Of a stretch of 48,445 bases of DNA, positions 3,578 through 40,740 are shown in pieces. The notes beneath the pieces are model-generated. The model did not search any database, was not told the DNA's origin, and saw nothing but the letters and a program-made list of their open reading frames with translations. Origin of the DNA: Chitinophagaceae bacterium (GTDB lineage: Bacteria; Bacteroidota; Bacteroidia; Chitinophagales; Chitinophagaceae); contig JAHEMO010000004.1 in NCBI GenBank assembly GCA_024643625.1, positions 1 through 48,445 of the forward strand. The letters are read 5' to 3'. The first letter of the stretch is position 1. Each line of letters begins with the position of its first letter. The position numbers and the translations under genes were made by a program.

Positions 3578-3917
3578 GTAGCCAATTCATTTATTGCATT
3601 ACCCAAATTCCTGATAGCAGTTAAAGATGGCTAATTTTCAGCCGGGAGCCATGAATAATCACCTGCAAACTATCAGCCGGGTTAGGTATTTAAACAACCC
3701 AATCTTAAAGCAACACTGTAGCTATTGCAGCGATAACTAACGAAGCCCACAGGCTATCTACCCCAAAATGCATTTTCACCGATGCTGACAAAAAAGTGAG
3801 CAACGCGCCCTGCCTGCAGGGCATTGCACTAGCTTACATCAGTTAACCCATTAACAACAAACTTTTACTGCAATCCTTTTTGCAATAGTTGTCCTGATGG
3901 CAGCATATTCTTTTATA
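3578..3917. other. Intergenic region, no gene seen
   Basis: This 340-bp gap separates the fasciclin-like lipoprotein from the sulfatase/GH78 gene, both on the minus strand. I see no ORF with family resemblance, no tRNA and no exact TANNTTTG element on the minus strand. The only structure is a GC-rich hairpin at 3807-3822. The gap is long enough for the fusion gene to have its own promoter. Confidence 0.6.
3791..3822 (-). terminator. Possible weak terminator after the SusCD/fasciclin operon
   Basis: GCCCTG-CCTG-CAGGGC forms a perfect 6-bp stem with a 4-nt loop at 3807-3822. Read on the minus strand, it lies about 95 nt after the fasciclin-like gene stop, and a run of six T follows about 11 nt later (3791-3796). 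The gap between stem and T run makes it a poor intrinsic terminator, so it may be a chance hairpin. Confidence 0.3.
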
Positions 3918-4562: not shown

Positions 4563-4580
4563 GAGAATTATTTTTTAGAA

Positions 4581-6056: not shown

Positions 6057-6084
6057 CTATTTATTAATGGCAGGCAAATAAAAA

Positions 6085-23282: not shown

Positions 23283-24566
23283 TTAAGCCATTACTGCTTT
23301 ATTGGTAAGCATGCGCAACGAAAGCCAGGCCATGGGCACCAACAACGCCCCCATTATGAAAAATGAAAGATATCCCGTTTGCGTAAGTACTGGCACCATC
23401 CAGGTACTTATGAGTACACCTAACACTGCCGATGTACCACTCATACCTGCTACCACCCCTACATTCTTGCCATTAAAATAGTCCGATGGAAGCGTTTGAA
23501 TATTACCAATTAGAAATTGAAACCCAAATAGTGTAATCCCTATTAAACCGATTGCAATAGCCGGATCGTCTTTAAGCCTATCCAATAGCAGTACGATTGC
23601 CACCAGCGAAACCAGCATAATGGCACAACCAATAGTGATGGCATTATTTCTTGCCTTCACAGGCTTTACCCCTTTTCTTATTTGCCTCGAAGAATAATAC
23701 CCACCAACAATACCACCAATGGCGGCCATCAGGTAGGGGAACCAGGCGAAAGCGCCAATCTGTTTGATATCAAAAGCAAATTGTTCTTTTAAAAAAGTTG
23801 GTAACCAGGTAACAAATAACCACCATACCGGATCAATAAAAAATCGTGCTGCTATAATGCCCCATGTTGCTTTAAAACCCAGCAACTGCTTCCAACTGTA
23901 AACTGTTGCTGTGGCATTGGCAGTATCTTTTTGCAATGACTTATCGGTAATATACGCCTGCTCTTCGGGGGTAATCCATTTGTGTTTGTCGGGTGTATTT
24001 TTATTAACTATCAGCCAGGGTATAATCCATAACAAACCAAGTACGGCAATACCTGCAAATGTGCCCTGCCAACCAATAGCCAGATACAATGCAGCTATGA
24101 CAGGAGCACTTACTACCGAACCCAGCGAAGCGCCTGCACCAAATATACCCTGCGCTATGGCACGTTCCTTTGCAGGAAACCATTCTGCGTTGCTCTTGGT
24201 AGCACCGGGCCAGTTGCCTGCTTCAAACAAACCCAGAAAAAAACGAAATATACTGAATGACCCAATGGTGCGTGCTATGGCATGCAGGGCAATAGAAAAG
24301 CTCCAACCCACTATGGAAACAACCATACCGAGTCTTGTGCCAATGGCATCCATCATTTTACCGGTAACCGTTTGGCCAATAGCATAAGCAATCATGAAAA
24401 AAGTGGTGAGCAAAGCCAATGCCTGCTTATTGTTTTCGTCGGCTATGCCAAAATCTTTGTAGATATAAGGCCACATGATATTAATGGCACTTCTGTCAAT
24501 ATAATTAATGACGGTAGCCAGCCCGATAAGCGTGATAATCCACCAACGAAGTCCTTTAATTTTCAT
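23283..24566 (-). CDS. MFS transporter, hexuronate (ExuT/ACS family) type
   Basis: 427 aa with about twelve membrane segments. ATVINYIDRSAINIMWPYI at the N terminus and LFEAGNWPGATKSNAEWFPAKER are characteristic of the anion:cation symporter group that includes ExuT, KdgT-like and DEH/hexuronate carriers. As last gene of the polyuronate cluster it most likely imports unsaturated or saturated monouronates from the periplasm by H+ symport. Homologous MFS genes accompany PL17 and KdgF in alginate loci. 34 bp separate it from kduI. Confidence 0.9.
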   Translation of the reverse strand: MKIKGLRWWIITLIGLATVINYIDRSAINIMWPYIYKDFGIADENNKQALALLTTFFMIAYAIGQTVTGKMMDAIGTRLGMVVSIVGWSFSIALHAIARTIGSFSIFRFFLGLFEAGNWPGATKSNAEWFPAKERAIAQGIFGAGASLGSVVSAPVIAALYLAIGWQGTFAGIAVLGLLWIIPWLIVNKNTPDKHKWITPEEQAYITDKSLQKDTANATATVYSWKQLLGFKATWGIIAARFFIDPVWWLFVTWLPTFLKEQFAFDIKQIGAFAWFPYLMAAIGGIVGGYYSSRQIRKGVKPVKARNNAITIGCAIMLVSLVAIVLLLDRLKDDPAIAIGLIGITLFGFQFLIGNIQTLPSDYFNGKNVGVVAGMSGTSAVLGVLISTWMVPVLTQTGYLSFFIMGALLVPMAWLSLRMLTNKAVMA

Positions 24567-24600: not shown

Positions 24601-25431
24601 TTATAAAATTGTAGCTATAGGTACCTGATCCATGTCGGTAAAAGTTTTGTTTTCACCGGCCATACCCCAAATAAATCCATAGTTGGAAGTACCTACACCA
24701 AAATGCATGCTCCAGGGTGGTGATACTACCGCCTGATTATTGGCAACGATAAGATGTCTTGTTTGCTGAGGCTCACCCATAAAATGCATGATGCGGTGAT
24801 CGGCATGCAAATCGAAATAAAAATAAGCTTCCATACGACGGGTATGCGTGTGAGGCGGTACAGAATTCCACACGCAACCATCAGCTAAGGTTGTTAGTCC
24901 CATTACCAACTGGCAACTTTGAATGCCGGCATCATGTATGTATTTGTAAATGGTTCTTTTGTTGGATGTCATCACATCACCAAGATGTACAGGCTGCGCT
25001 TCATCCTTTGTCATCAATACGTTGGGATATGCTTGATGCGCAGGTGCCGACAAGATGTAAAACATGGCAGGACTACTTGCATCTTGGCTGCTGAAGCTTA
25101 CTTCTTTTGTTCCCTTGCCCAGATAAACACATTCAAGTTTGCCTACTGCAAAACTTTCCCCGTCGGCCAGCACTGTACCGGCACCTCCTACATTGATGAT
25201 GCCCATTTCGCGCCGCTCCAAAAAATAATTAGCCTTCAATTCTTCAGGATTAGGCAAAGGCAAAGCTTCGCCTGCAGGCACGGCACCACCCACTATCATG
25301 CGGTCGTAATGCGTATAGGTTAAATGCAGTTTTCCGCTTACCATCAATTTATCCAGTAAAAAACCTGCACGCTGTGCCGCGGTATCCATCGCCCGCATTT
25401 CACCGGCACTGTGTTGAAATAAAATATCCAT
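24601..25431 (-). CDS. kduI: 5-dehydro-4-deoxy-D-glucuronate isomerase
   Basis: 276 aa from ATG 25431 (MDILFQHSAGEMRAMDT), the usual KduI length. The ORF track uses a TTG 21 nt upstream. Family motifs present: LTYTHYDRMIVGGAVP, WNSVPPHTHTRRMEAYFYFDL with the cupin metal-binding His/His/Glu set, and SPPWSMHFGVGTSNYGFIWGMAGEN. It converts 4-deoxy-L-threo-5-hexosulose uronate to 3-deoxy-D-glycero-2,5-hexodiulosonate in the cytoplasm, feeding KduD encoded 24 bp upstream. Usually found in pectin, ulvan or glycosaminoglycan pathways. Confidence 0.96.
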   Translation of the reverse strand: MDILFQHSAGEMRAMDTAAQRAGFLLDKLMVSGKLHLTYTHYDRMIVGGAVPAGEALPLPNPEELKANYFLERREMGIINVGGAGTVLADGESFAVGKLECVYLGKGTKEVSFSSQDASSPAMFYILSAPAHQAYPNVLMTKDEAQPVHLGDVMTSNKRTIYKYIHDAGIQSCQLVMGLTTLADGCVWNSVPPHTHTRRMEAYFYFDLHADHRIMHFMGEPQQTRHLIVANNQAVVSPPWSMHFGVGTSNYGFIWGMAGENKTFTDMDQVPIATIL

Positions 25432-25455
25432 GATTACAATTTTAGTTTTCAATAA

Positions 25456-26220
25456 TTATCTACCCATCCAGCCACCATCAACGGTTATGATTGTACCGCT
25501 CACATAATCTGCTGCAGGACTACATAAAAACACATAGGCACCCGCCATATCCTCCGGAGTGCCCCATCTGCTTGCCGGTATACGGGACAGTATGGATTCA
25601 TTGCGTTTTAAATCTTCTCTCAGTGCAGCTGTATTATCCGTAGCAATATAGCCCGGCGCCACTCCATTTACATTTACACCATGCGTTGCCCATTCGTTTG
25701 CAAAAGCTTTTAGCAAAGAGGAAACGGCACCTTTACTGGCTGCATAACCCGGCACATTAATACCTCCCTGAAAACTTAGCAACGAGCAGGTAAAAACGAT
25801 TTTCCCTGATTTGCGTGCTACCATATGCTTGCCGATTTCGCGGGTTAGTATAAACTGAGCGTTGAGGTTGATGTCAATAATCTGATCCCAGTATTCATCC
25901 GGGTGTTCGGCAGCTGGTGCTCTGAGAATATGGCCGGCGTTGTTGATTAAAATATCAATGTGCGAATGGTTGGCATGAAGTTCGTCAAGCATGGTGTAAA
26001 GCTGTTCACGCTTTGAAAAATCAGCCGCATAGGCACTAAATTTTCTACCAGCAGCGGCTACAGCTTTTGCCACTTCGCTATCGGGTTGCAACATACTGCT
26101 GTTTACACCAATAATATCGGCACCTGCCTGCGCCAATGCAATGGCAATAGCCTTGCCTATACCACGGCTGCATCCCGTAACGAGCGCCGTTTTTCCTTGT
26201 AGTCCAAAATCAATCATCAT
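25456..26220 (-). CDS. kduD: 2-dehydro-3-deoxy-D-gluconate 5-dehydrogenase
   Basis: 254 aa from ATG 26220 (the ORF track starts 6 nt earlier at TTG). Classical SDR fold: TGCSRGIGKA cofactor loop, NNAG, a Ser in TCSLLSFQGG, and YAASK as the catalytic Tyr/Lys. DFGLQGKTALVTG and the IITVDGGWMGR C terminus match KduD. It reduces 3-deoxy-D-glycero-2,5-hexodiulosonate to KDG with NAD(P)H. Adjacency to kduI makes the assignment firm. A second SDR (39985-40740) in the same operon could give a parallel route to KDG. Confidence 0.93.
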   Translation of the reverse strand: MMIDFGLQGKTALVTGCSRGIGKAIAIALAQAGADIIGVNSSMLQPDSEVAKAVAAAGRKFSAYAADFSKREQLYTMLDELHANHSHIDILINNAGHILRAPAAEHPDEYWDQIIDINLNAQFILTREIGKHMVARKSGKIVFTCSLLSFQGGINVPGYAASKGAVSSLLKAFANEWATHGVNVNGVAPGYIATDNTAALREDLKRNESILSRIPASRWGTPEDMAGAYVFLCSPAADYVSGTIITVDGGWMGR

Positions 26221-26258
26221 GCGCAAAAAGTTTTATATCCGGCAATGTAACAAATCAC

Positions 26259-28976
26259 TTATTGTTTTGCGATGCGAATTAGTTGCTGTTGACCGTCAGC
26301 GTTTACCACTTTTATCATATACACGCCGTTCGGCAGGCGAGATAGATTCAACTGGATGATAGCACTGCCTGCTACCTGCTGAGCCATAATACTACCCGCT
26401 GCATTCATCAGGCTGATATGATCACCGGCAGCCAGGCCACTAATTGTGGTGCTTGCCGATGCCGGATTAGGATACACGCTAATGGAAGCTCTGCTGCCCG
26501 GCGTAACGCGTAGTACTTTGCTATAGTTTTCAACAGCGTCCTTGGCTATATGCCTAATGCGATACAAGGCAACACCATTGAGCGCGGCTGGGTCAGTAAA
26601 GCTATAAGCACCGGATTGATTAGCGGAAACTGTACCCACAGTTACAAAATTATTAAGGTTGGTACCTCGCTCAATTGCATAATACAAACTGTTTTGTTCG
26701 TTTGCCACATCCCAACTCACGTCTACCCCCCTTCTACCTGCAATTGCATTTGCACTTTTGAAAATAACGGGTAGTAACACCCCCACTTCACCTACTGAAA
26801 AAGATGAAAAATTGCTGAAAGAGGAGGTTGCTATATTGGTACTGTTGTTACCGGTACCCGAAACAATACCCCAGTTACCACCATCATGCCTGGCTATGCC
26901 GATAGCATCATTGGCGAAGCCACTAAAGGCTGCACCTTCCAATGCTGCATCCCAACCTAGTTGCATACCACAGGTACCGCTTCCGCTACTGCGGTTTATA
27001 TGCCATACTGCATTTACTATCCTATCTTTTTGTGCCGCAGTAAATGCAGTACCGTTGGGCGTGCCTTCTGTTGTAACCCCTTCAAAGACACTAATGGCAA
27101 ATGACGACGTTTCGGCAGGTGTAAGAACGGCTGGCAAATATCTGGCTGCAGATCCAACCGGAATATTGTAGCTAGCTACAGGCATGCCGGTAATCCATAG
27201 TACGCCTGCCTTGGCACCGTCTACCTGCGTGGCAATATATTTTGATGCACTGAAAGGAGTACCCATAATCATATTAGCTCCGTTAATGGTAAGGGTGTCG
27301 GTTGCACGAATGGTTAACTTGCCAGTTCCCAATGTAAGGAGGCCATCTATCTGTTGATTTTGCTTATTGGTTGTAGCAGCCGCGTTAAAGGTTACGTTGC
27401 CCGCTGCATTATCGGCGCTGCTTGTAAATGGCGTAACCGTAGCTCCATTGAATATATAATTGCTGCCAGTGCTAAATGTTTTTGTGCCCGTCATCAGTAT
27501 GGTGCCATCAACGCCGCCGGCATGCGCAGTTTCTAAAGTTGCAGCATCATTTGTCAAAGTGATATTACCGGTGAAGCTTGCTTTATCAAGCAATGCGGGA
27601 TTAGATATATTAAATGAAAACGATCCACTGCTGGTGGAGATAACATAAGTATTAGGAGCGATGCCCTCACCGGTTACGCGGCAGCCGATAGACACGTTTG
27701 CAGCATTATAAGCGGTAGAGCCATTTAAGGTTATGGTAACGCTTCCTCTGGTAAGCGTAGCCATTGAAGCCGCTGTATTGGCGCCTCTCAACTGGAAACG
27801 TGCGGTGCCGGATAGTTCATTTGTTTTTGTATTTATTTTTCCGGTCACACTGGTTATGGAGGTTCCGCTTAATGCAATGTTTTTATCAACAGTTACTATC
27901 GCATCAGTTCCAATGCTCATAGAAGCAAGGTTTTCCCATGTTCCGTTTCCACTTAGGGATTGAGTACCATTGGCAATTAAAACAAGATTGGAAGAAGTAA
28001 ACGACGGTGCTGCACCAAATGTTCCTTCATTAATAATGCTACCTTTTACCGGCAAGGTACCTGTGGTACGATAACGGAACGAAGCCGTGTTAGAAATGAT
28101 AAGACTGTCAATGCCATAAGTGTTATCCGTCAATGTAATGTTTACACCCGGCATAACTTTTACATTGGCTAAAAACTTGCTGCCAAATAATCCGGAAGGT
28201 TGCGGGGCATGCATTTCAAGTGTGCTACCCGGCAGCCATAAAATGGGAAAGAAATTTGATGTGTTGGCCTGCACGCTATTGCCACCAAGAAATCTGCAAA
28301 CTGCTCCTGCTTTAAACACCACACCAAATACAGCAGCAGCCGGTGTATTAGATGCACTGCCAAAAGGGTATGAACTTGCCTGCGTTACATTGCTATTTAC
28401 AATAGCGCCGCTCTCCATAAATATACTGTTGGATTCGCGGGCTGTCATGCGCGCTGTGCCTGCACCATTGTCAAGGATATTTAACGTGCCGGAAATGGAG
28501 GCGGTTGCCGGGCCACCATTTTCTTCACCAACAACCATATTGCAACCAAAACCGGAATTGGTGGTAATGGTAAGCGTACAACCTGCAGCTACCATTACAT
28601 CATGTGCCGCTGTTCCATCGCCTGCAATGGTGATGGTTGAGGTACCGTCGGCGTTGCGCCGCAGCACAACATTGGCAGCATTTGATAACAATAATCTGCC
28701 CACCGTAAATGAGCCTGTGAAATCTGGCGTTACCGTCCCGGTAGCCGGCGTACTACCACCAATATTGCTGCCATTAAAAATGAGTACATCATTATTTGCC
28801 GGCATTGCCCTGTTGCTACCACTGCCATCAAGGTTAGTATTCCAACTGTTATCGCTGGTAATACTACCGGCCGCGCCACCTACCCAGTAATAAGTAGTCT
28901 GTGCCATGCCTGCTGCAGAAATACCCACAATGGCTGCAATTAGTAAAACAATTCTTTGTGTAAATTTTAGATTCAT
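26259..28976 (-). CDS. Large T9SS-exported repeat protein of the polyuronate locus
   Basis: 905 aa from ATG 28976. A signal peptide (to GMAQ) is followed by TYYWVGG...SWNTNLDG, then long Thr/Ser/Gly/Asn-rich beta-strand repeats (about 60-700) that look like a beta-helix or autotransporter-type passenger. An Fn3-like module (WDVANEQNSLYYAIERG) and a type A T9SS sorting domain (SVYPNPAS...LPNGVYMIKVV...IRIAKQ) complete it. No catalytic motif is recognised. Position inside the operon next to the PL28-like lyase, which has the same Fn3-sorting tail, suggests a surface-attached polysaccharide-binding or adhesion role; that is inference. Confidence 0.8.
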   Translation of the reverse strand: MNLKFTQRIVLLIAAIVGISAAGMAQTTYYWVGGAAGSITSDNSWNTNLDGSGSNRAMPANNDVLIFNGSNIGGSTPATGTVTPDFTGSFTVGRLLLSNAANVVLRRNADGTSTITIAGDGTAAHDVMVAAGCTLTITTNSGFGCNMVVGEENGGPATASISGTLNILDNGAGTARMTARESNSIFMESGAIVNSNVTQASSYPFGSASNTPAAAVFGVVFKAGAVCRFLGGNSVQANTSNFFPILWLPGSTLEMHAPQPSGLFGSKFLANVKVMPGVNITLTDNTYGIDSLIISNTASFRYRTTGTLPVKGSIINEGTFGAAPSFTSSNLVLIANGTQSLSGNGTWENLASMSIGTDAIVTVDKNIALSGTSITSVTGKINTKTNELSGTARFQLRGANTAASMATLTRGSVTITLNGSTAYNAANVSIGCRVTGEGIAPNTYVISTSSGSFSFNISNPALLDKASFTGNITLTNDAATLETAHAGGVDGTILMTGTKTFSTGSNYIFNGATVTPFTSSADNAAGNVTFNAAATTNKQNQQIDGLLTLGTGKLTIRATDTLTINGANMIMGTPFSASKYIATQVDGAKAGVLWITGMPVASYNIPVGSAARYLPAVLTPAETSSFAISVFEGVTTEGTPNGTAFTAAQKDRIVNAVWHINRSSGSGTCGMQLGWDAALEGAAFSGFANDAIGIARHDGGNWGIVSGTGNNSTNIATSSFSNFSSFSVGEVGVLLPVIFKSANAIAGRRGVDVSWDVANEQNSLYYAIERGTNLNNFVTVGTVSANQSGAYSFTDPAALNGVALYRIRHIAKDAVENYSKVLRVTPGSRASISVYPNPASASTTISGLAAGDHISLMNAAGSIMAQQVAGSAIIQLNLSRLPNGVYMIKVVNADGQQQLIRIAKQ

Positions 28977-29031
28977 TGTCAATGGATTTAATAGAAAATA
29001 ATATGGCTTCTTAATTTGATTATGGATGAAT

Positions 29032-30423
29032 TTATTGTTTCAAAATTTTTTGATAGAATACCTGATCTGTACTTCGGCAATGCAGCATATATACCCCGGC
29101 GGGTATCGACGGCAATGCCTTATTAAGCGCCTCATTAAGCATTGCTGATAGGCCATTGGCCACGCAAACAATACGACCGCCTGCATCAAGAAGCTGCATG
29201 TGAAATACTTTAGTAGCATCAGGCAATTGCAATTTTGCGATACCTGATATGGGATTGGGATAAACTAAACGGTATGCATCACTATTTGCGCCCAGGGCAA
29301 CAGCAATCACTTCGCTGCGGTGCATTTCGCCGGAAGATTCTGTGTATTGTACACGATAATAATTAATACCAGCTACTGGCTGCTTATGGGTGTAGGAAAA
29401 ATAAGCTTCCTCTCCGCGCAATTGGGTTGGTTGTATTTTATCCAAAACAGTGAACTGTTGTCCATCAATGGCATGCTCTATAGTGTAGCCCTGATGTGCC
29501 ATGTAACCAGCTACTGACCAATTAAGTGAAACTTGTTTGCCATTTGCTTCGCCAGCAAATGAAAGCCATCGGCTTGCGAGGCTTACCTCCAATTCCTCAA
29601 TACTAAAATTGTTGAACAGTATTGATTCATCGCGCAAATCCTGCTTGTTCAGCAGGCTGCGATAGATGCCCCATTTAGGTCGTACAAAATCGTTGTCGGG
29701 TCTGATAGTCATGAGTTTGCTGTTACTGTAATCCAACAGCACAGCATTATCGGCCACAGATACTATGCGCATGCTATACGACCCCTCAGCGCCAACCTTT
29801 ACCACCTCGGTAGCTTCTACCCATTTGCCTTCAAACAACGATAAGTTCAGGATGGCCACCTTCGTAAGATCATTGTGAATGAGTTCCAGTTTGTTGGGCG
29901 TACCTTTTCGCAAAGTGAGGGTGAACATCGGATCGCCATCATCACCATTTACCGGCTTAATCTGATGGATATGCGTAAAATTGGAAGAAGGCTTATAACC
30001 CACCGGAATTTTAAATCGCCATGTGTAGCGGATAATTTCTCCTCTTATACCAATAAGGTTGGCAGGCGATTTATCATAAGTCTTAATTTCTGTTCGCTGC
30101 CTGTCCAGGTTAATACACCTGTCGTTATCTTCTGCCACATGGCTAAAAAATGAAAATACATACTGATTCAGTTCTGTATCCCACACTTCAGTGATATGCC
30201 TGCCGAACGCACCATGAATACACTCTGGGGTTTCAATTACATCATAGCCCGGGGCTAGTTTACTATTGATTAGTTCATAAGTATTACCGGGCCCGTCTGC
30301 AGTTACAACCGTGGGCTGACCTGTAACATACAGGTTAGCACACGATAAAAACATCGCTGTAAAAACTTTTATATGGCCGATAATAACCTTCAATCTACTT
30401 GTTTTTAAATGCAGGCAGGGCAT
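29032..30423 (-). CDS. PL28-like (ulvan lyase-like) T9SS-secreted polysaccharide lyase
   Basis: 463 aa from ATG 30423, which overlaps the esterase gene by 29 nt. A TTG at 30393, 1 nt after the esterase stop, gives a tighter signal peptide (MKVIIGHIKVFTAMFLSCAN). Residues about 40-275 form a beta-jelly-roll lyase: DRQRTEIKTYDKSPANL, SNFTHIHQIKPVNGDDGDP, TLTLRKGTPNKLEL and FVRPKWGIYRSL. From memory this closely resembles the PL28 ulvan lyase of Nonlabens; a divergent PL7- or PL20-like glucuronan/alginate lyase is the alternative. An Fn3-like module and type A sorting domain (VYPNPISG...IPAGVYMLH...KILKQ) follow. Expected to cut polymer endolytically at the cell surface. Confidence 0.7.
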   Translation of the reverse strand: MPCLHLKTSRLKVIIGHIKVFTAMFLSCANLYVTGQPTVVTADGPGNTYELINSKLAPGYDVIETPECIHGAFGRHITEVWDTELNQYVFSFFSHVAEDNDRCINLDRQRTEIKTYDKSPANLIGIRGEIIRYTWRFKIPVGYKPSSNFTHIHQIKPVNGDDGDPMFTLTLRKGTPNKLELIHNDLTKVAILNLSLFEGKWVEATEVVKVGAEGSYSMRIVSVADNAVLLDYSNSKLMTIRPDNDFVRPKWGIYRSLLNKQDLRDESILFNNFSIEELEVSLASRWLSFAGEANGKQVSLNWSVAGYMAHQGYTIEHAIDGQQFTVLDKIQPTQLRGEEAYFSYTHKQPVAGINYYRVQYTESSGEMHRSEVIAVALGANSDAYRLVYPNPISGIAKLQLPDATKVFHMQLLDAGGRIVCVANGLSAMLNEALNKALPSIPAGVYMLHCRSTDQVFYQKILKQ

Positions 30424-31309
30424 TGATAAATGCGATGACTGAACGATTTATTTCGCTATTCTCTTCTCTGGAAAACTTGCCATGCAAGCCGCCCTTGATA
30501 GTTACAAATTTTGTTGTGACACCCGCTGCCTGCAGGCGCTCGTGTAATGAGACAGATTGAGCATATGGCACAGTTGGATCAGCATCGCCATGCACAATAA
30601 AAACCGGCGGGCTGCTGCTATTCACATAATGGATTGGCGAAACGGATGCCGCAAAAGCAGCATCATTAGCATACTTACCCATCCAGTTCACCGCTGATTT
30701 ACTTTTAATGGTTGTGCCATAACCCCAGTCCCACACATCGGTGATGCCATATTTATCAATAATAGCAGCCACCGTAAATGCGGGTGCATCTTTACAGTTC
30801 TTATCAAACAGTTTCTTATCACCCAGTAGTCCGCCCATCAGAGCGAGGTGACCACCGGCACTACCGCCCATCATCACTACCCTGTTCACGTCAATATTGT
30901 ATTGCTTCGCATGTGATAACACGTACATCATGGCACACCGCGTATCTTCAATAGCGGCTGGTGCTGTAGCTTGTACAGTAAGTCTGTATTCCAAATTGAC
31001 CACGGCAAAACCTGCCTTAAAAAAAGTACTGAATCCGGTTTGCGATTCTTTCACACCATGATTCCAGCCTCCGCCATGAATATTAAACACTACAGGTAAA
31101 GGGCGCTCTGCATTATCATCAAAATAAACATCCAACAAACCCACCCAATTGCCTACCTGCACGTAAGGTATGTTTAATGCAGCTTTGAAAGTAGCTGGAA
31201 AAATAACAGGAGCATAGGTTACGGTATCTGCCTGCTGGGCAAAACACATGACACATGCATTTTGCACCAGCATAAACAGACACCACCACCCACGCAAATA
31301 TTTCACCAT
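30395..31309 (-). CDS. Secreted carboxylesterase (BD-FAE/HGGG alpha/beta hydrolase)
   Basis: 304 aa. A signal peptide ends near CFAQQ. The oxyanion motif HGGG is at 78-81, the nucleophile elbow GGSAGGH has Ser150, HGDADPTVP supplies Asp, and GGLHGKF supplies His. The fold matches the BD-FAE-like group of PUL esterases, which remove acetyl or feruloyl esters from glycans. It lies 1 bp after susD and overlaps the lyase gene, so it belongs to the locus. It probably deacetylates the polyuronate before or during depolymerisation; acetylated bacterial alginate or glucuronan would fit. Confidence 0.87.
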   Translation of the reverse strand: MVKYLRGWWCLFMLVQNACVMCFAQQADTVTYAPVIFPATFKAALNIPYVQVGNWVGLLDVYFDDNAERPLPVVFNIHGGGWNHGVKESQTGFSTFFKAGFAVVNLEYRLTVQATAPAAIEDTRCAMMYVLSHAKQYNIDVNRVVMMGGSAGGHLALMGGLLGDKKLFDKNCKDAPAFTVAAIIDKYGITDVWDWGYGTTIKSKSAVNWMGKYANDAAFAASVSPIHYVNSSSPPVFIVHGDADPTVPYAQSVSLHERLQAAGVTTKFVTIKGGLHGKFSREENSEINRSVIAFINALPAFKNK

Positions 31310-31310
31310 A

Positions 31311-32861
31311 CTAGTACCCCGGATTTTGCGTAATAGTCAATTGCGTATTTGTATCAATTTCCCGCTGCGGAATGGGCAGCAACAATCTGTCTTTGGTAAC
31401 TCCATTCTGCAATTCTGCAATGGTAGGCGTAGGCGGCAGATACTCCACATAATGCGTAGAATATTCATACGCAAAATGCGCTTTCAATACATCCTCCGCA
31501 CGAATTGAAGTTGTGGTAGTATTAAACCGAATCAAATCAAACCATCGTTGATTTTCAAATGCAAATTCCCGCCGCCTTTCGTCTGCCAATTCCTTTTCAA
31601 ACGCTGCCACAGTACCTATGGCAGTAGGCAGTCCGAGCAAACCAGCCCTTAGACGAACCTGATTTATATAGCCCACGCTTGCCGCGGTGTTACCTTGTGC
31701 TTCGGCCAACATGAGTAATACATCGGCATATCGCAAAACAGGCCAATCCGCTTCCCCATCATCGGTAATGGTAACCGGATTCAGAAACTTCTTTACATAA
31801 ATTCTTTCCGCAGTGCCTGTTCCGTAGCGGGAAATGTTTACATCCTTGCGTTTATCAGTAGCGGTGTAGAAAGAATCGATGTCTGCACTCGGCGTGTTCC
31901 AACCTCTTCCTGAACCATTGATTACCGCAGAGCCACTATTAAGCGGACCAAAATCGTTGCCAAAACTAGAGCCCAAACCAAGTCCACCAGATTTGTAGCG
32001 CACAGTAAAAAGTATCTCACTATTTACCTCGTTTGAAATAGAAAACACATTAGCATAAGTTGATTGCAATCCAAAACCGCTATTGGTTATTATATCCTGC
32101 AATAGTGCACTTGCTTCCGTTTTCTTGTTGCGCGTCAGGTATGCTTTGGCCAACAAGGCTTTGGCTGCCCATGCATTGGCTTTTCCCTTATTGCCGGCAG
32201 CAATCTGGCTAAACTTAAGCGGGCTTAAATAAGTGGCAGCAGTTGTTAAGTCGGCTTCTATCAATTTGTAAATGTCATCCGAACTTGCCCTGTTCATGGT
32301 TTTTGCCACAGCAGGTGCAATAGGCGTATGTACTAAAAATACACCTCCAAACAGGCGTACCAGATTAAAATAATGGTAGGCACGAATAAACAAAGCTTCG
32401 CCTGCAAATTGCTTACGATCAGCATCGCTGAGCGGAATATCAATATCAACAAGACTTATGCTACCATTTCCGGCATTATAAGTAACGCCTAGCTTTTGAA
32501 TGATGATGTTAGCATTGCGAATATTGTTATAGGTACTTAGCCAATACTGGTAAATAGCGTCCTGGGTGGTGGCAGGAATAAACATATCCAAATCGCTCAA
32601 ATCACGATTGAAGGAGTTGGTACTTGCCGGTACACCCTGCAAACTATTGTCGCTACGCAATTCCGTCAATTGCCATTCGCGAAACATAGGTGCTTGCAAA
32701 CCATTGTACACGCCCGTAAGGCCTGCCTGTACTTCAGAAGCATCGCTGTAAAAGGTTCCGGTATTTAGGTTGGATTGTGGATAGAGGTCAATTACTTTAT
32801 TGCATGAACTCCCGATGGTCACCACAAGAACACTAAGTAAGATTATATATTTCATGATCAT
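31311..32861 (-). CDS. SusD/RagB-family glycan-binding lipoprotein (polyuronate locus)
   Basis: 516 aa. The lipoprotein signal ends IGSSC, then LYPQSNLNTGTFYSDASEVQAGLTGVYNGLQ is the typical SusD opening. TPR-like helices include EALFIRAYHYFNLVRLFGGV, and the C-terminal DERRREFAFENQRWFDLIRF plus ITQNPGY close the family pattern. It partners the SusC encoded 14 bp upstream to import oligouronates. It is unlike the PUL 1 SusD beyond family motifs, so the two loci likely differ in ligand. Confidence 0.94.
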   Translation of the reverse strand: MIMKYIILLSVLVVTIGSSCNKVIDLYPQSNLNTGTFYSDASEVQAGLTGVYNGLQAPMFREWQLTELRSDNSLQGVPASTNSFNRDLSDLDMFIPATTQDAIYQYWLSTYNNIRNANIIIQKLGVTYNAGNGSISLVDIDIPLSDADRKQFAGEALFIRAYHYFNLVRLFGGVFLVHTPIAPAVAKTMNRASSDDIYKLIEADLTTAATYLSPLKFSQIAAGNKGKANAWAAKALLAKAYLTRNKKTEASALLQDIITNSGFGLQSTYANVFSISNEVNSEILFTVRYKSGGLGLGSSFGNDFGPLNSGSAVINGSGRGWNTPSADIDSFYTATDKRKDVNISRYGTGTAERIYVKKFLNPVTITDDGEADWPVLRYADVLLMLAEAQGNTAASVGYINQVRLRAGLLGLPTAIGTVAAFEKELADERRREFAFENQRWFDLIRFNTTTTSIRAEDVLKAHFAYEYSTHYVEYLPPTPTIAELQNGVTKDRLLLPIPQREIDTNTQLTITQNPGY

Positions 32862-32875
32862 GTTATGTTAGGGGA

Positions 32876-35800
32876 TTAAAAATTGATATCAATACCAAAG
32901 AGCATGGTTTTAGGAATAGGGAAACTACCCCGCTGATAGCCATCTACCAATGGTGTCTGATAAGGTCCGCTACTAAATCTTGCTTCAGGATTGATACCAC
33001 GATAATTTGACCCTGTTATGAAGAACAGATTCTGCGCTGAGAAGTACACCCTTAGCGAACTCAGCCGCATCCACTGTGTAACTTTTGATGGTAGTGTATA
33101 CCCAACCAGCAATTCGCGCAGCGCTGCGTAGGAAGCATCTTCAACTACATAATCCGTAAGCATCCAATTGAATCCAAAAGTTGAATATGGCGTTTTGCCA
33201 TCACCCGGGAACATTGGGCTTATCCAGCGATTGGAGTTGTAGTTGCGGTTGTAGCGTTTGGTTTCATTATAGTTAGGATCGCCATTAATTAAAGTACCAC
33301 CCTGCACACCCTGCACCAAAAACATCAGGTCGAAATCAAATATTTTGAAATTGTTGGTGATGCCCCAGGTAAAATCCGGATAGGGATTACCAATAACTGT
33401 ACGGTCATTAGCATCTATTACATTATTGCCATCCAAATCAACAAGCTTAAGACCACCGGCCACAAATACATTGCTCAGGTTGCTGTTAAGTCCTTTTGCC
33501 TTTGCTGCATCAATTTCCGCTTGCGATAACCATACCCCATCTGTCTTATAGCCAAAGAATTGAATGAGCGGCTCACCCACGCGGTTCAGGTACAATTCTG
33601 TTCTTTCCCCTTGGTTCAGCAAGAATGCCTCATCGCTGAGCGACATAATTTTATTGCGGGTACGAGCGAAATTGGCTGCGGTACTCCACGTAAAGTTCTT
33701 CTTGCGCACGTTAAACGTAGTAAGTTCAAGTTCAACACCGTTATTCCTTAGCCTTCCAATATTGTTCCAGGCCAGCGGAGCACCCGTGAAACCAAGGGCA
33801 GCTTGCTGCAGCAACAACTGATCCGTTTCACTCTTATACACATCAACGGAAAGGTTGATTGTATTTTTCAATACGCTGATATCGATACCTGCGTTGTATT
33901 GAAATGTGCGCTCCCAGGTAATATCAGGGTTTGATAAGATGCTTCGCGAAGGCAATTGTCCGGTAGACACCGTGCCGTTGCTGGTACTGCCAAAAGGATA
34001 GTTGGCTGCGTACAGCAGATCCACAAATGCAAAATCAATAATGCGGTTATTACCGGTAACCCCATAACTGCCTCTTAGCTTAAGGTTATTAAGCCAGGAA
34101 ACATTTTCCATAAAACCTTCATTACTAACTATCCATCCTGCAGAAACAGAAGGGAAATAACCCCATTTATTGCCTGGACCGAAATATGAGCTGCCATCTG
34201 CACGAATGGTAGCATTGAATAAATACTTTTCCTTATAACTATAGGTTATCCTGCCCAGGTAAGAAAGTAAACCAATCTGATTTTTGGTATTAAAAGTGTT
34301 GTTCCGGTCCTGATCTACGGTCAGCGCAGTATTAAGTGTGGTAATATTATCGCTTGGATAATCGTAGGCTGTTATTTGTTCATCATCAATAGTTGTTTTT
34401 TGCGCTGTGAAGCCAGCCAATGCACTCACCGAATGATTTCCAAATCGGTTGCTGTATGTAAACGTATTCTCACTCAACAAGTCTACAAAAAGCCGCTTAT
34501 TATAGATACCCCGGTTTACATCACCAGCCCTGTTTGAATTGCGTTTTGCAAAATCAAGACCTTGCGTATAATTGACATAAGCACTGGCGAGTGTTTTAAA
34601 ATCAAATCCCGGCAGGATATTTACGGTCAGGTCGCCGGAGGTCAATACGCGATAATCATTTTGCGAGATGGTTCTTGTTTCCATCACCGATTTAGGCGAA
34701 TTGTTGGCTGTATTAAAAGGAGTTACAGCAGTTGTATTTGCCCAAATACTACCATCAGGCATGGTACCGTTGTACACTCTGCCGTTAAAATATCTGGCCT
34801 GCGCATAGTCCCCGGCTTTCACGTCGGCATAGGCCGGATTTTCACGAACAAAAGCCGCCAACTTCTCATCCAGATAAACGGGCAGGTAAGATTGAAAACG
34901 TACAAAGTCGATATAGTTTACAGAAGGCCGCTCACGCTTAATAAACGAAGGATTAAGATTTATAGAAAGCTTTACCCGCTTGCTAAGGTTAGCGTCAACT
35001 TTTGTTTTTATCGTAAATCTTTCATACTCGCTATGGTACATCATGCCCGGATCATCCTGATAACCGCCGGATACATAATACTTCAAGCCGCTGTTACCAC
35101 CACTAACATTCATTTGAATGTTTTTTGTAGAGGCGGTACGCAGGGCTTCGGACTGCCAATCGGTAGCTTCGCCACCGCGCAAATCATTTTCAATAATGTA
35201 GGCACCCCGCTCCGGTGTGGATGCAATTTGCGCAGTTGTTGGCGGCGGAATACTTGGATCCTGCAGTTTTAAAGCCGCTTCATCAAAAAGCATTTGAGTG
35301 TACTCGCTTGTTGTCATCATATCGTAGCGCTCATAAGCCTGCTTAGTACCTGTTGACATTTTAATACCAAATTTTGGTTTGTTAGCCTTGCCGCTTTTTG
35401 TTGTAATTAGAATAACACCACTTGCACCACGAGATCCATAAATAGCTGCCGATGCAGCATCCTTCAGCACATCTACAGATTGCACATCAGCCATATTTAC
35501 AAAAGCCAAACCATCGGGAACAGGATGGCCATCAACCACTACTAACGGACTTGCACCGGCATTAATGGAACTGATACCACGAATACGAACCTTCGGTTCA
35601 GCACCTGCCTCCGGGCTCACATTCTGGATTTGAACACCAGCAATTTTTCCCTGCAAAGCCTGGTCAAGTCTTGATTGCGGCACTTCATCCAAACGATCGT
35701 TTTGATATTTGGAAACCGAACCTGTAACGGTTGCCCTCTTTTGTGTACCATAACCCACTACCACCACATCATCGGTAGTAGCACTGGACACTTGCATAAC

Positions 35801-36085
35801 TACATCAATAACCTTGCGGCCTGCTATAGTAACTGCCTGTTCCTTATAGCCAACAAAAGAAAATAACAACACCGTAGTGCCTGGGTCAACGCTGATACTA
35901 TACGTACCGTCATCTTTTGAGGCAATGCCTTGCTTAGTCTTATCAGCGAACACACTTACACCCGCCATTGGGGTGCCTCCAATATCACTTGTTACCTTTC
36001 CGGTAATTACAATTTTTTGTGCAAATGCACTTGCAGTTAGCAACCATAGTGTCACTAGTGGAATAATAATCTTCATGTTTTTCAT
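32876..36085 (-). CDS. SusC/RagA-family TonB-dependent transporter (polyuronate locus)
   Basis: 1069 aa. A signal peptide ending near SAFAQ, a carboxypeptidase-D regulatory-like domain (about 25-100, VITGKVTSDIGGTPMAGVSV), a TonB plug (DDVVVVGYGTQKRATVTGSV; YGSRGASGVILITTKSG) and a 22-strand-type barrel ending in LFGIDINF. It takes up oligouronates across the outer membrane with its SusD partner. It sits in the middle of the operon, 28 bp after the PL38-like gene, and not at its head, so its expression depends on the long transcript unless there is an internal promoter. Confidence 0.95.
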   Translation of the reverse strand: MKNMKIIIPLVTLWLLTASAFAQKIVITGKVTSDIGGTPMAGVSVFADKTKQGIASKDDGTYSISVDPGTTVLLFSFVGYKEQAVTIAGRKVIDVVMQVSSATTDDVVVVGYGTQKRATVTGSVSKYQNDRLDEVPQSRLDQALQGKIAGVQIQNVSPEAGAEPKVRIRGISSINAGASPLVVVDGHPVPDGLAFVNMADVQSVDVLKDAASAAIYGSRGASGVILITTKSGKANKPKFGIKMSTGTKQAYERYDMMTTSEYTQMLFDEAALKLQDPSIPPPTTAQIASTPERGAYIIENDLRGGEATDWQSEALRTASTKNIQMNVSGGNSGLKYYVSGGYQDDPGMMYHSEYERFTIKTKVDANLSKRVKLSINLNPSFIKRERPSVNYIDFVRFQSYLPVYLDEKLAAFVRENPAYADVKAGDYAQARYFNGRVYNGTMPDGSIWANTTAVTPFNTANNSPKSVMETRTISQNDYRVLTSGDLTVNILPGFDFKTLASAYVNYTQGLDFAKRNSNRAGDVNRGIYNKRLFVDLLSENTFTYSNRFGNHSVSALAGFTAQKTTIDDEQITAYDYPSDNITTLNTALTVDQDRNNTFNTKNQIGLLSYLGRITYSYKEKYLFNATIRADGSSYFGPGNKWGYFPSVSAGWIVSNEGFMENVSWLNNLKLRGSYGVTGNNRIIDFAFVDLLYAANYPFGSTSNGTVSTGQLPSRSILSNPDITWERTFQYNAGIDISVLKNTINLSVDVYKSETDQLLLQQAALGFTGAPLAWNNIGRLRNNGVELELTTFNVRKKNFTWSTAANFARTRNKIMSLSDEAFLLNQGERTELYLNRVGEPLIQFFGYKTDGVWLSQAEIDAAKAKGLNSNLSNVFVAGGLKLVDLDGNNVIDANDRTVIGNPYPDFTWGITNNFKIFDFDLMFLVQGVQGGTLINGDPNYNETKRYNRNYNSNRWISPMFPGDGKTPYSTFGFNWMLTDYVVEDASYAALRELLVGYTLPSKVTQWMRLSSLRVYFSAQNLFFITGSNYRGINPEARFSSGPYQTPLVDGYQRGSFPIPKTMLFGIDINF

Positions 36086-36113: not shown

Positions 36114-37376
36114 TCAATACAATAGCCATATTTTTAGTCCTTGTGCTTTGTCGCCGGCAAGTTGGGTTACCACCTGGCTACAATTTCTACACTTAAACTT
36201 TTTTGATCCAGCCAGCAGAATATTGTAACTATCTTCAAAGTCATAAGGTTTTATTTGCTCACCCATCCATTCTTTTTCATCGGCCAGGTATGGCTTGAGG
36301 TTATCAAAAGCCATTTTCAAAGATTTCCCTGATGGCGTGGTAAGTTGCCAGAAATTAATGCCAACATGTTCGCTCATATTGGCAACGGAAACAAAAGCAT
36401 CCATAACAAATGCTGAATAGTGAAGAGAGATCGTACGTTCCATTTCCGCAGGAAAAAATGCCTTCTCATCCAGCTGTGCATCAAGGCGGGAAGCAGACCT
36501 TTCAACAATTGTTTTGGCAGTTGCTTTATCATCAACAAACAAGGCCAAAGCCAATGACTGCGCATCGTACCAAACACCATGGTTATTTTTTGTAGCCATT
36601 TCATGTTTGCCTTCCTGCGAGGTTTGCATCCAGTTCAAAAACGCTCCGCACCATTGCTGCATATTTTCCTGGTAGGCCGGTTTCCAATATTTGGATGCTC
36701 CAATTAGGCCTATCGCATCCACAAGTTTTACAAAATGACGCGTATCTATAAGCCCGGCACCTCTTCCATCGTTCATTCCCTTAATGGCCTGCGCATACTT
36801 TAAATTTGGATTCATGCGAGTGGCGGTGTCCAAAAACCAAACCTGCAAAAGCTTTGAGGCATGCTCGGCATACACTTCGTTGTCAGAAAAATAATAAGCC
36901 AGCCCCAACACATACAAGTTTGCACATAATTTGGGCAGGTAGTCCTTGTCTTTATAATCCTTTACTTCCGGATTGGTTTGTCCATCCTTCCGGATATAAG
37001 GCAGGCCATCCGGCTTCGAAGAATCAGGCCAATGGTAGGGTGCCAGGCTCATATAATCATGCTTGTCACCGCTTGGCGGTGTGTGCTTCTTTTCCATCAC
37101 ACTCACCGGGCCCCATTTCAATGCTTTATCAGCATCTTTTATCAATTGCTTGTAAGCCAGCGTCAAACGCTCGTCACCATTTTTCATGGCGTTTTTATTG
37201 AGTAATAGCTGTTGTCCATCAATTTCAAATACACGCACGTTACCTCCCTTTGGTGGATAGCCGATGCTTATTCCTTTTATTGAAAATGCAAAAACAAATA
37301 CCAACGCAACTAAAACGCGTCGCTTAAAAAGACTACCGGCGACTGTGCCTTTTATGAATTTTCTAGTCATCATCAT
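36114..37376 (-). CDS. PL38-like alginate/glucuronan lyase
   Basis: 420 aa. An N-terminal hydrophobic signal (about 20-38) precedes an alginate-lyase-type (alpha/alpha) toroid (PF05426-like). SGDKHDYMSLAPYHWPDSSK and ATKNNHGVWYDAQSLALALF (Asn/His around 265-266) are the conserved active-site segments, matching the group now classed as PL38, with reported activity on glucuronan or mannuronan. Expected to be periplasmic. Its ATG overlaps the kdgF TAA by one base (TAATG), implying translational coupling. The C terminus carries an unusual CRNC pair (Cys396, Cys399). Confidence 0.8.
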   Translation of the reverse strand: MMMTRKFIKGTVAGSLFKRRVLVALVFVFAFSIKGISIGYPPKGGNVRVFEIDGQQLLLNKNAMKNGDERLTLAYKQLIKDADKALKWGPVSVMEKKHTPPSGDKHDYMSLAPYHWPDSSKPDGLPYIRKDGQTNPEVKDYKDKDYLPKLCANLYVLGLAYYFSDNEVYAEHASKLLQVWFLDTATRMNPNLKYAQAIKGMNDGRGAGLIDTRHFVKLVDAIGLIGASKYWKPAYQENMQQWCGAFLNWMQTSQEGKHEMATKNNHGVWYDAQSLALALFVDDKATAKTIVERSASRLDAQLDEKAFFPAEMERTISLHYSAFVMDAFVSVANMSEHVGINFWQLTTPSGKSLKMAFDNLKPYLADEKEWMGEQIKPYDFEDSYNILLAGSKKFKCRNCSQVVTQLAGDKAQGLKIWLLY

Positions 37377-37732
37377 TATGCTGCTTCTCCCACAAAATCT
37401 TCTCGCATTGGACTAAACACATCAATAAGTACACCTGCTTCGAGGCATACAGCGCCGTGCAATACATTAGAAGGAATAATAAAAACATCACCGGCCTTCA
37501 GTACGCGCTTATCGCCACCAATTTCTACTTCAAAAACGCCGCTCTCCACATGCGTTATTTGTGAGTGATGATGTTTGTGAAGGCTGCCAATACCATCTTT
37601 TTCAAAAGCCACACGAACCAGCATGAGCCGTTGGTCCCAGGCCATAATTTTACGCTTCACACCTACGGCAACTGATTCCCATGGGATATCCATATCCTGA
37701 ATAAATGTTGGGATTGATTTTGTACTATTCAT
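37376..37732 (-). CDS. kdgF: KdgF cupin, opens unsaturated monouronates
   Basis: 118 aa, single cupin domain, no signal peptide. HKHHHSQITHVESGVFEVEIG supplies the HxH...Q metal-binding motif, IPSNVLHGAV the second cupin motif, and DVFSPMREDF is a KdgF signature. The enzyme converts 4,5-unsaturated monouronates from pectin or alginate lyases into the linear ketone (DEH/DKI). It stands between PL17 and PL38 genes, matching its substrate source. Cytoplasmic. Confidence 0.93.
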   Translation of the reverse strand: MNSTKSIPTFIQDMDIPWESVAVGVKRKIMAWDQRLMLVRVAFEKDGIGSLHKHHHSQITHVESGVFEVEIGGDKRVLKAGDVFIIPSNVLHGAVCLEAGVLIDVFSPMREDFVGEAA

Positions 37733-37756: not shown

Positions 37757-39949
37757 TTATATTTTTTTGCCATTTAACCACAAGCACCATGGGCCTGTCC
37801 ATGTCAGGCCATTGCTAGAATGCTGCTGTGCCGAAACAATATTGTTGTTGCATTGTGCTAGCTTAATTTCATCGCCGCTCTTAAGTTGAATAGTCGCAAT
37901 GCAATAAGCTGCATCATTTCGCAAGAGCGTAATGGTTTGTATATCTGAGTATGCATTTGTAGAAAATTCATTTTTGGGATCAAAGCGTCCGTGAATTTCC
38001 ATTACGTTAAGAAATAATGCATTAGCAGCCTTCTTTCTTACAATAAGAGCGGGTTCGTGCCGAAGGTTGAAATTGGGGTCATTGGCACCAAGCCGCGTTA
38101 AAAACAGCGTTGCACTATCCTGCACCAAAGTGGAGATGGTATAGTAAGTACTGTTATTGAGTAAGGTAAGTTGGGCTATTGTATCCCTTACCGTTGCGCT
38201 GGCTTCATTCCATAAATATTCGTATCCGTTCCTTTGGCCAAGCGGCTGCTGCCTCGTGGTATTGGCTTGATAATTAAAGCTGGCTTTTATGAGTTGGCCG
38301 CTGTAGTGAAATGGCAAGTCGTACTGATGTTGGGCAGATGCGTTTACTTTAAATAAATCAAGCAACATCGGCTTTCTGTTCTCTAATTGTAAAAGATAAA
38401 GCGTTCTCTGCATGGCTATACCCTTATATGCATTGGTATCTGCAGCGCTTACTACCTGCACTATTGGATTTCCCAGTTGACTATATTGCTTGTAGGCATG
38501 ATACTTTTCCGCTTCTGATTCTTTGCCGCCAAAATGGCTTTGCTCATCCACTACCAGCGTATTGTGCGCAATGGTTTGCGAAGCATAACTTTTATTCTCC
38601 GGCAGATATCTCCCTCCATACTTCTGCTCCACACCTATAAAACGTACGGAACCATAATTAGTCAAAATTTCATTCCCCTGATCATAAAGCATTATGCCCA
38701 ACTTATCGTAGTGACCGTGAGACAGGCCATGCGAAGTGTACTTAAACAGTAAACTTGTAGGTTTCTCCGGAGGTCCCGCCCTCAGGATTGATACACCACC
38801 TTGCTTTCCATTGGCACCGTCTGCACTCTCAATAGATTTATAGGCAAAATATTGGGGCACTTTTCCGCTTTGCAATGCAGCGGCTATGGCAATACCACCC
38901 TTATTAAGCATCACCCTATCCTGCTGTTTCGCCACATACAACCAATTGTTATTAGGGCCAAATGCCTTCCAGGAAATACTGATGGCAGTGACCAATTCAT
39001 TTGTAGTATAGTCCTTCTCCTTAAGGGCATCATTCAATGGAAAAAATCCACCGCCAACATTTGTTTGTTGCAAGCATGTATTCAGCGCTTGCTGCAGAAT
39101 ACTGTTGCGATGGGCAAAAACCTTCAGGTTAGGTTGGCTATTGTCAAGGGCATTTGCCAAAAGCATATAGGGTAATATGGCATAACGTGTATAGTAAGGC
39201 CCTTCAGTATAGTAACCATCCGGAGAAAAAAGGCTATCCATTAATGCAATAAAACCGCTATGCCCCTTTTTATCGGAGCCCTTTAGCGCCATATCAACAT
39301 AATGCTGATTATCAGTAGCAATACCAATTATGCCGACACCTGCGCAGGCCCAAACGGCATGATTGTGTATGAGATTAAACCAACTCTCCAGTTCCTGCGT
39401 TACAAAATCTACTTCAGGTTTAAAAGCACCTTCAGAAATATGCTTGCGTTGTTGGGGTGTAATAAAATTATGTACCAAATCGTAAGCCATGCCTGCGTAA
39501 ACCATCCAGTTGGCATCATTAAGCGCCTGCCAAAATATTCTGCCGGGCGATGAACTAGTAGCTTCCGGATGATTCTTGAGGGTAGGATTTAATGCAGCAT
39601 ATTTCAACAGCATGTTGCGAACCAAAACTGCGTAGCTACTATCTCCTGTAAGCTGATACAACACCCCGGCGTTGAACATAAGTGTATAATTGTACTTATG
39701 CTTATCGTGCGTGTAGCCACCCGCCGGATCTTTAGGCACAGGCACATCAATATCCTTATGCAACCAACTATCTACCTCTGCTTTTATGTCGTTATACGAC
39801 TGCCTGGATAGTGGGTACTTATTGTAGTTTTGGCTCACATGTCTTGCTTCCTCCGGTGTAAAAAAAGTACGCGGATGCTGTGCCAGCAGGCAAAACGAAA
39901 TTGCCATGGAGCAAACAACCAACGAATATTTCTTAAATTCTTTCCTCAT
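37757..39949 (-). CDS. PL17-family exolytic oligouronate (oligoalginate) lyase
   Basis: 730 aa. A signal peptide ends near LLAQ. An alpha/alpha toroid (about 30-360) is followed by heparinase II/III-like beta sheets (about 390-730). NLIHNHAVWACAGVGI holds Asn196-His197, and SPDGYYTEGPYYTRYA holds Tyr253; the 57-residue Asn-Tyr spacing equals that remembered for Saccharophagus Alg17C (Asn201, Tyr258). GLSHGHYDKLGI and SQTIAHNTLVVDE add the beta-domain residues. It releases unsaturated monouronate from oligomers, which KdgF (24 bp downstream) then opens. Probably periplasmic. Alginate is the usual substrate; other polyuronates are possible. Confidence 0.9.
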   Translation of the reverse strand: MRKEFKKYSLVVCSMAISFCLLAQHPRTFFTPEEARHVSQNYNKYPLSRQSYNDIKAEVDSWLHKDIDVPVPKDPAGGYTHDKHKYNYTLMFNAGVLYQLTGDSSYAVLVRNMLLKYAALNPTLKNHPEATSSSPGRIFWQALNDANWMVYAGMAYDLVHNFITPQQRKHISEGAFKPEVDFVTQELESWFNLIHNHAVWACAGVGIIGIATDNQHYVDMALKGSDKKGHSGFIALMDSLFSPDGYYTEGPYYTRYAILPYMLLANALDNSQPNLKVFAHRNSILQQALNTCLQQTNVGGGFFPLNDALKEKDYTTNELVTAISISWKAFGPNNNWLYVAKQQDRVMLNKGGIAIAAALQSGKVPQYFAYKSIESADGANGKQGGVSILRAGPPEKPTSLLFKYTSHGLSHGHYDKLGIMLYDQGNEILTNYGSVRFIGVEQKYGGRYLPENKSYASQTIAHNTLVVDEQSHFGGKESEAEKYHAYKQYSQLGNPIVQVVSAADTNAYKGIAMQRTLYLLQLENRKPMLLDLFKVNASAQHQYDLPFHYSGQLIKASFNYQANTTRQQPLGQRNGYEYLWNEASATVRDTIAQLTLLNNSTYYTISTLVQDSATLFLTRLGANDPNFNLRHEPALIVRKKAANALFLNVMEIHGRFDPKNEFSTNAYSDIQTITLLRNDAAYCIATIQLKSGDEIKLAQCNNNIVSAQQHSSNGLTWTGPWCLWLNGKKI

Positions 39950-39984: not shown

Positions 39985-40740
39985 TTAAACAAAATAGGTT
40001 CCACCGTTTATCTCAATGCTTTCGCCATTAATAAAAGATGATGCATCCGTAGCCAGAAATAGGGCCAGTTCGCCCACTTCTTCGGCTCTTCCTTCCCGGC
40101 GAAGCGGTGTACCTGCGGCTACATTGGTGCGCACTTCGGGTTTGGTAAATGTGTTGTGGAAAGTGGTATTAATCATTCCCGGAGAAATACAATTTACACG
40201 AATCCCTTTAGGGCCAAGTTCCTTTGCCAAACTGCGGGTAAGTGTAAGCACTCCACCCTTTGCCGCGGAGTAGGCCATAGCACCAAAGCCACCACCATCG
40301 CGTGCCGCCTGTGATGAGAAGTTAACAATAGCACCGCCCTCCGTCATATGCGGCAAAGTAGCACGGCAAACCAGGTAAACAGATTTCAGGTTTACATTCA
40401 TTACTGCATCCCAAAATTCCTCATCAAGATCAGGCAACGTTTTACGGCCCATCAGTCCACCCGCTACATTTACCAATACGTGAATGGTATTGCCAAATGC
40501 ATTGGTACATGTAGTTATTAAATGGGCGACCTGCGCAGGGTCAGTAACATCGGCTCGGCAAGCTATAGCCACACCACCATTGGCTTTGATTATTTCAACA
40601 GTTTCTACTGCCTGTTCCTCATTACCCAAAAAGTTTACGCAAACTTTTGCACCTGCAGCTGCGAGCTTAATAGATACTTGTCTACCGATATCTCTTGCAC
40701 CACCAGTTACAATGGCTACTTTGTTTTCTAGATTTTTCAT
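39985..40740 (-). CDS. SDR oxidoreductase, probable DEH reductase
   Basis: 251 aa classical SDR: TGGARDIGR cofactor loop, NVAGG in place of NNAG, Ser in NFSSQAARDGGG, YSAAK catalytic Tyr/Lys, and SPGMINTTFHNTF. FabG-like SDRs beside PL17, KdgF and PL6 in alginolytic Bacteroidota reduce 4-deoxy-L-erythro-5-hexoseulose uronate (DEH) directly to KDG; that role is inferred from context. The alternative is a second KduD-type or uronate dehydrogenase. It begins 6 bp after the PL6 stop and is the second gene of the operon. Cytoplasmic. Confidence 0.82.
   Translation of the reverse strand: MKNLENKVAIVTGGARDIGRQVSIKLAAAGAKVCVNFLGNEEQAVETVEIIKANGGVAIACRADVTDPAQVAHLITTCTNAFGNTIHVLVNVAGGLMGRKTLPDLDEEFWDAVMNVNLKSVYLVCRATLPHMTEGGAIVNFSSQAARDGGGFGAMAYSAAKGGVLTLTRSLAKELGPKGIRVNCISPGMINTTFHNTFTKPEVRTNVAAGTPLRREGRAEEVGELALFLATDASSFINGESIEINGGTYFV

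Follow-up and report, generated by a model that had tools for sequence, protein, structure and literature searches.

The gene at positions 29032–30423 (minus strand) of the window, the whole stretch of 48,445 nucleotides from Chitinophagaceae bacterium contig JAHEMO010000004.1 that was analysed, encodes a jelly-roll protein of 463 amino acids that we refer to as XPL. We consider it probable, at roughly two chances in three, that XPL is a polyuronate lyase with a beta jelly roll, secreted by the T9SS, probably endo-acting and belonging to a family other than PL28, and that it acts on alginate-type polymers, most likely mannuronate-rich and perhaps O-acetylated. The fold, the invariant residues, the secretion tail and the locus are documented below. 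The locus, genome co-occurrence, CBM96 fusions, a Bacteroides plasmid locus and an esterase fusion point to an alginate-type substrate, and acetylated mannuronan is a plausible one. XPL is a recurring, structurally unsolved part of alginate utilization loci, a plasmid locus of human-gut Bacteroides included, and its labelling as a PL28 ulvan lyase is likely a mis-filing that is corrected here.

The XPL gene and its conserved residues

The open reading frame proposed in a sequence-only reading of this DNA is real, running for 463 codons from an ATG start that overlaps the 3′ end of the upstream esterase gene (30395–31309) by 29 bases. A 78-sequence alignment, a structural model and Foldseek matches place the catalytic beta jelly-roll domain at approximately residues 33–285 (29569–30327, minus strand). 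The last 77 residues (aa 387–463; 29035–29265, minus strand) form a type A C-terminal sorting domain (TIGR04183, 32.1 bits against a cut-off of 23) that marks XPL as T9SS-secreted and that the sequence-only reading had not mentioned. Matches in a tblastn search against phage were confined to this C-terminal T9SS region.

The 78 aligned relatives are 36–66% identical to the window XPL, and their invariant positions include three motifs, all encoded on the minus strand: DRQRTEIK (aa 107–114; 30082–30105), in which D107, R108, R110, E112 and K114 are invariant; FTHIHQIK (aa 149–156; 29956–29979), with F149, H151, Q154 and K156; and RPKWGIYR (aa 248–255; 29659–29682), with R248, K250, G252, Y254 and R255. 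H95 and W201 are likewise invariant in 78 of 78. The three strings by which the protein had been likened to PL28 are present at aa 110–123, 149–158 and 250–257, and are not chance resemblances because residues there are invariant in the 78 relatives.

The published catalytic set of PL28 comprises Arg117, Gln160, Lys162 and Tyr281; on GlcA the Tyr is base as well as acid, and on IdoA the base is the Lys (PMC11395424). R110, Q154, K156 and Y254 of XPL match these residues in type and in order, in a comparison made along the chain rather than by spatial superposition. Since this PL28-type set is invariant in all 78 relatives, XPL plausibly works, by analogy, like PL28, PL13 and PL20. Arg110 and Gln154 (compare PL28 Gln160) would neutralise the +1 carboxylate, the C5 proton would be taken by Tyr254 (syn) or by the candidate base Lys156 (anti; compare Lys162), and Tyr254, the putative acid/base (compare Tyr281), would protonate the leaving oxygen.

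Fold and family membership

An AlphaFold2 model built from the 78-sequence alignment (pLDDT 96.2, pTM 0.92) is an all-beta sandwich of the beta jelly-roll type. Foldseek against the PDB ranked PL14 (5gmt) first and PL20 glucuronan lyase (TrGL, 2zzj) second, followed by PL13 heparin lyase I and PL28 ulvan lyase (NLR48, 6d2c), with PL7 and PL36 (6kcw) close behind; all of these lyase matches had TM scores of about 0.5–0.6 and 9–14% identity, and legume lectins and GH131 came next with similar E-values. The alginate lyases PL14, PL7 and PL36 share the jelly roll and similar fold scores with XPL, but are about 10–13% identical to it and lack a profile match. The alignment to PL28 6d2c (TM 0.54, rmsd 5.7, 9% identity) was no closer than those to PL14, PL20, PL13, PL7 and PL36. 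As modelled, the fold of XPL is of the jelly-roll lyase type, yet no solved family is close. The model of a PL20-like control protein reached a pLDDT of 58 and was left out of comparisons.

Neither of two profiles of the XPL family, built from 78 members (A1) and from 18 divergent ones (A4), matched a PDB chain of any polysaccharide lyase at E≤10, PL28 6d2c included; a control profile of ten PL20/PL13-like proteins (A3) retrieved 2zzj at 3.7e-17 as well as heparin lyase I. An A1 match to fibronectin-binding protein A (E 0.0036) disappeared with A4 and was dismissed as chance. PL28 membership, one of two options in the sequence-only reading, is unsupported because the family profiles match no PL28 chain in the PDB. 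XPL and PL28 have in common the jelly roll and an Arg, Gln-x-Lys, Tyr set in the same order, but sequence-profile matches are absent and the XPL locus is alginate-type, not ulvan-type; judged from the alignment and the model, the likeness of XPL to ulvan lyases is confined to fold and active-site residue layout. The second option, that XPL belongs to a sister family whose substrate is a non-sulfated polyuronate, gains support from the Arg/Gln-x-Lys/Tyr layout, the gene context, genome co-occurrence and CBM96 fusions.

A remote relation links XPL to PL20 and PL13. The PL20/PL13-like family aligned with the XPL family at 82–91% probability in hhalign, and the window XPL scored 22.5–24.6 bits against PF14099 (Polysacc_lyase, the Pfam family of PL13), below the gathering cut-off of 29.9. 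This model was matched at E≤1 by 73 of the 78 relatives (best 3.5e-10), those above the cut-off including L024 (32.1 bits), L147 (31.8), L048 (31.6) and L032 (30.7), and a Bacteroides relative is named "heparin lyase I family protein" by NCBI. Despite the shared fold and the weak PF14099 matches, XPL was not placed in PL20 or PL13: neither A1 nor A4 gave a PDB match to them, and all 78 relatives carry Gln-x-Lys in place of the Gln-x-His of the PL20/PL13-like family. Pfam scans of XPL and its relatives gave no match to PF08787 (Alginate_lyase2, PL7), and PL41 was set aside as what we take to be a brown-algal family.

Profile–profile comparison also joined the XPL family to a small Flavobacteriaceae Gln-x-Lys family (93% probability). 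This second Gln-x-Lys family, A2 (L101, L111 and L113), is jelly-roll-like and has T9SS tails and weak PF14099 matches. A PDB search with A2 gave no lyase match, and neither A2 nor L098, obtained through PF14099 matches in 301 Flavobacteriaceae genomes, matched a PL28 chain.

The alginate-type locus and its distribution

XPL lies in a run of minus-strand genes. Upstream of it are the BD-FAE-type esterase (30395–31309; PF20434, 1.5e-71), which neighbours XPL in 16 of 84 loci and is fused to it in one (L082); a SusD-like lipoprotein recognised from its sequence (31311–32861), with homologues adjoining the XPL gene in 22 loci; a SusC-like TonB-dependent transporter assigned from its open reading frame (32876–36085; homologues in 18 loci); a PL38-like lyase (36114–37376; PF05426, BoPL38 8bdq at 1.1e-81); a KdgF-like cupin (37376–37732; Cupin_2, 2.5e-12) in the position of KdgF in gut alginate PULs (PMC11381880); a PL17 exolytic alginate lyase (37757–39949; 7bjt, 1.1e-183); an SDR oxidoreductase (39985–40740), probably a DEH reductase by its synteny with the SDR of alginate PULs; and a PL6 alginate lyase with two beta-helix domains (40747–43050; BcAlyPL6 7dmk, 6.2e-164). 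On the other side lie an MFS uronate transporter (23283–24566; PF07690), KduI (24601–25452; NF002091, 412.9 bits against a cut-off of 250), a KduD-like SDR (25456–26226; TIGR01832, 327.5 bits, below the cut-off of 338.85) and a T9SS-tailed protein of 907 aa and unknown function (26259–28982; TIGR04183), which has relatives in 8 XPL loci and in which a Pfam scan shows no domain besides the tail.

The PDB and Pfam matches to PL6, PL17 and PL38 agree with the earlier description of the other lyases of the locus as alginate/glucuronan types. The accompanying statement that GH105 is absent holds for the window, where none of the genes scanned is a GH88/GH105, but not for the genome, whose other contigs hold four PF07470 (GH88/GH105) genes. 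A search of the same genome for PL7 gave no match, and its controls were silent too. Gut Bacteroides alginate PULs (B. ovatus CP926 and B. eggerthii) resemble the window in PL6, PL17, PL38 (B. ovatus CP926), KdgF, MFS, SDR and SusC/D (PMC11381880). The literature consulted contains no description of the jelly-roll lyase as an enzyme, and the sole annotation of the B. finegoldii plasmid copy is "heparin lyase I family protein".

At the other end of the window we noted a sulfatase–GH78 alpha-L-rhamnosidase fusion (35–3577), absent from the sequence-only reading, with its own SusD and SusC (4581–9150). The region 35–9150, which the contig end truncates, is a PUL of the ulvan type or for some other sulfated rhamnan, and housekeeping genes separate it from the alginate locus.

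Among 299 genomes of the window's taxonomic family, 28 carry a homologue of the catalytic domain. PL6 was found in 21 of these 28 and in 22 of the 271 lyase-negative genomes (p about 8e-15), and PL17 in 18 and 28, respectively (p 4e-10), both values being uncorrected for phylogeny within this single family. Scanning bacterial and archaeal genomes yielded 46 loci, and neighbourhoods were counted over 84 loci; many of the 39 "PL6" labels in these neighbourhoods are weak beta-helix matches. When 20 longer members were scanned with Pfam, eight had CBM96 after the lyase domain (L022, L023, L024, L027, L030, L032, L043 and L046), and L043 and L046 form the sister group of the window XPL in the tree. 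The module on which CBM96 was founded is specific for alginate (PMC9971899), and the Pfam model also takes in DNRLRE domains, whose ligand is unknown.

A Bacteroides finegoldii plasmid carries nearly the gene set of the window, in the order SusC-SusD-PL6-PL17-cupin-MFS-SDR-PL38-alpha/beta hydrolase (esterase)-lyase. In a Muribaculaceae locus (L082) the order is PL6-PL17-MFS-SDR-[BD-FAE::lyase]-lyase, esterase and lyase being one protein, and in marine Flavobacteria the homologue is embedded in PL7/PL17/PL6 alginate loci (L145, L155). Some clades adjoin GH88/GH105, GH2, sulfatases or alpha-fucosidases rather than PL17 (L042–L046, L070, L142–L144), and substrate specificity therefore probably differs among clades of the XPL family. 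In Flavobacteriaceae and other MAG loci (L049–L058), two to three tandem lyase copies are followed by a SASA-type esterase, DUF4861, KduD, KduI, SusD and SusC, and neither PL6 nor PL17 was found within 10 kb. On the B. finegoldii plasmid, the annotation divides the PL38 gene (L176, 13776–14978) into a hypothetical CDS of 267 bases and, after it, a shortened "alginate lyase family protein", so that at the level of annotation the gene looks broken.

Substrate, pathway and alternative readings

On an acetylated alginate-type polymer, ester groups would be stripped before cleavage by the BD-FAE esterase, whose gene overlaps that of XPL, and the chain would be cut by XPL through beta-elimination. 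PL6, PL38 and PL17 would complete the breakdown of the oligomers, and the resulting unsaturated monomer would be passed on by KdgF and a reductase. The repeated pairing and fusion with the esterase offers a direct route, open to test, to enzymes acting on acetylated bacterial alginate. A broader proposal, which we hold to be unlikely in its entirety, is that a new lyase family without a CAZy number and its coupled or fused BD-FAE esterase form a de-esterifying pair specialised for O-acetylated (bacterial) mannuronan, in bacteria ranging from environmental, Chitinophagaceae-like Bacteroidota to Bacteroides of the human gut.

One possibility, less likely than not but compatible with our preferred reading, is that the XPL family is CAZy PL44, a recent polyM-preferring alginate-lyase family lying outside the older ones (Zhou et al. 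2024), which we weighed by its description only. The title cited in PMC11921355 presents the first PL44 member as a polyM-preferring lyase of a new family, and we read this citation as that of the PL44 founding paper, Zhou et al. 2024. PL44 appears among alginate families in papers from 2025, and the XPL family is common in alginate loci and without a PDB relative. Most XPL-family members do match PF14099, if weakly, whereas the abstract of the founding paper reportedly describes a protein without similarity to any defined domain. Otherwise, XPL represents a family of polysaccharide lyases that is of a known kind but unassigned in CAZy. That XPL is instead a PL28 ulvan lyase is highly improbable: fold class and the types and order of catalytic residues are shared, the genome has GH88/GH105 genes and the window a separate sulfatase-GH78 PUL, but against these stand the two profiles without a PL28 match, the low similarity to 6d2c and the alginate-type locus. 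It is scarcely credible that XPL is a non-catalytic jelly-roll carbohydrate-binding protein, as the legume lectins among the Foldseek matches might suggest, given a lyase-type active-site set invariant over 78 relatives, lyases as the strongest fold matches and a separate CBM96 as fusion partner.

A further alternative, unlikely in our view, would place XPL among the lyases of beta-glucuronan (PL20-like) or of mixed GlcA polymers, feeding the KduI/KduD branch of the locus. The second-best fold match is PL20 2zzj, and PL38 includes a glucuronan lyase. KduI and KduD lie two genes from XPL and both act on DHU, the threo product from GlcA/GalA (PMC12838403), and the tandem XPL copies of Flavobacteriaceae loci L049–L056 are also flanked by a KduD-KduI pair. 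However, in 15 genomes of the window's family KduI and PL17 are no more than 20 kb apart, and 12 of these genomes lack XPL, so that KduI follows the alginate locus rather than XPL, and KduI/KduD was rejected as a sign of a GlcA substrate. In addition, two XPL loci with PL6, PL17 and SDR (L081 and L082) have no KduI in the stretch covered. By its stereochemistry KduI is an enzyme for GlcA/GalA products, and its regular occurrence no more than 20 kb from PL17 in this family is an observation in its own right: either GlcA polymers, too, are used by the PL17 loci with KduI, or KduI has a different function there.
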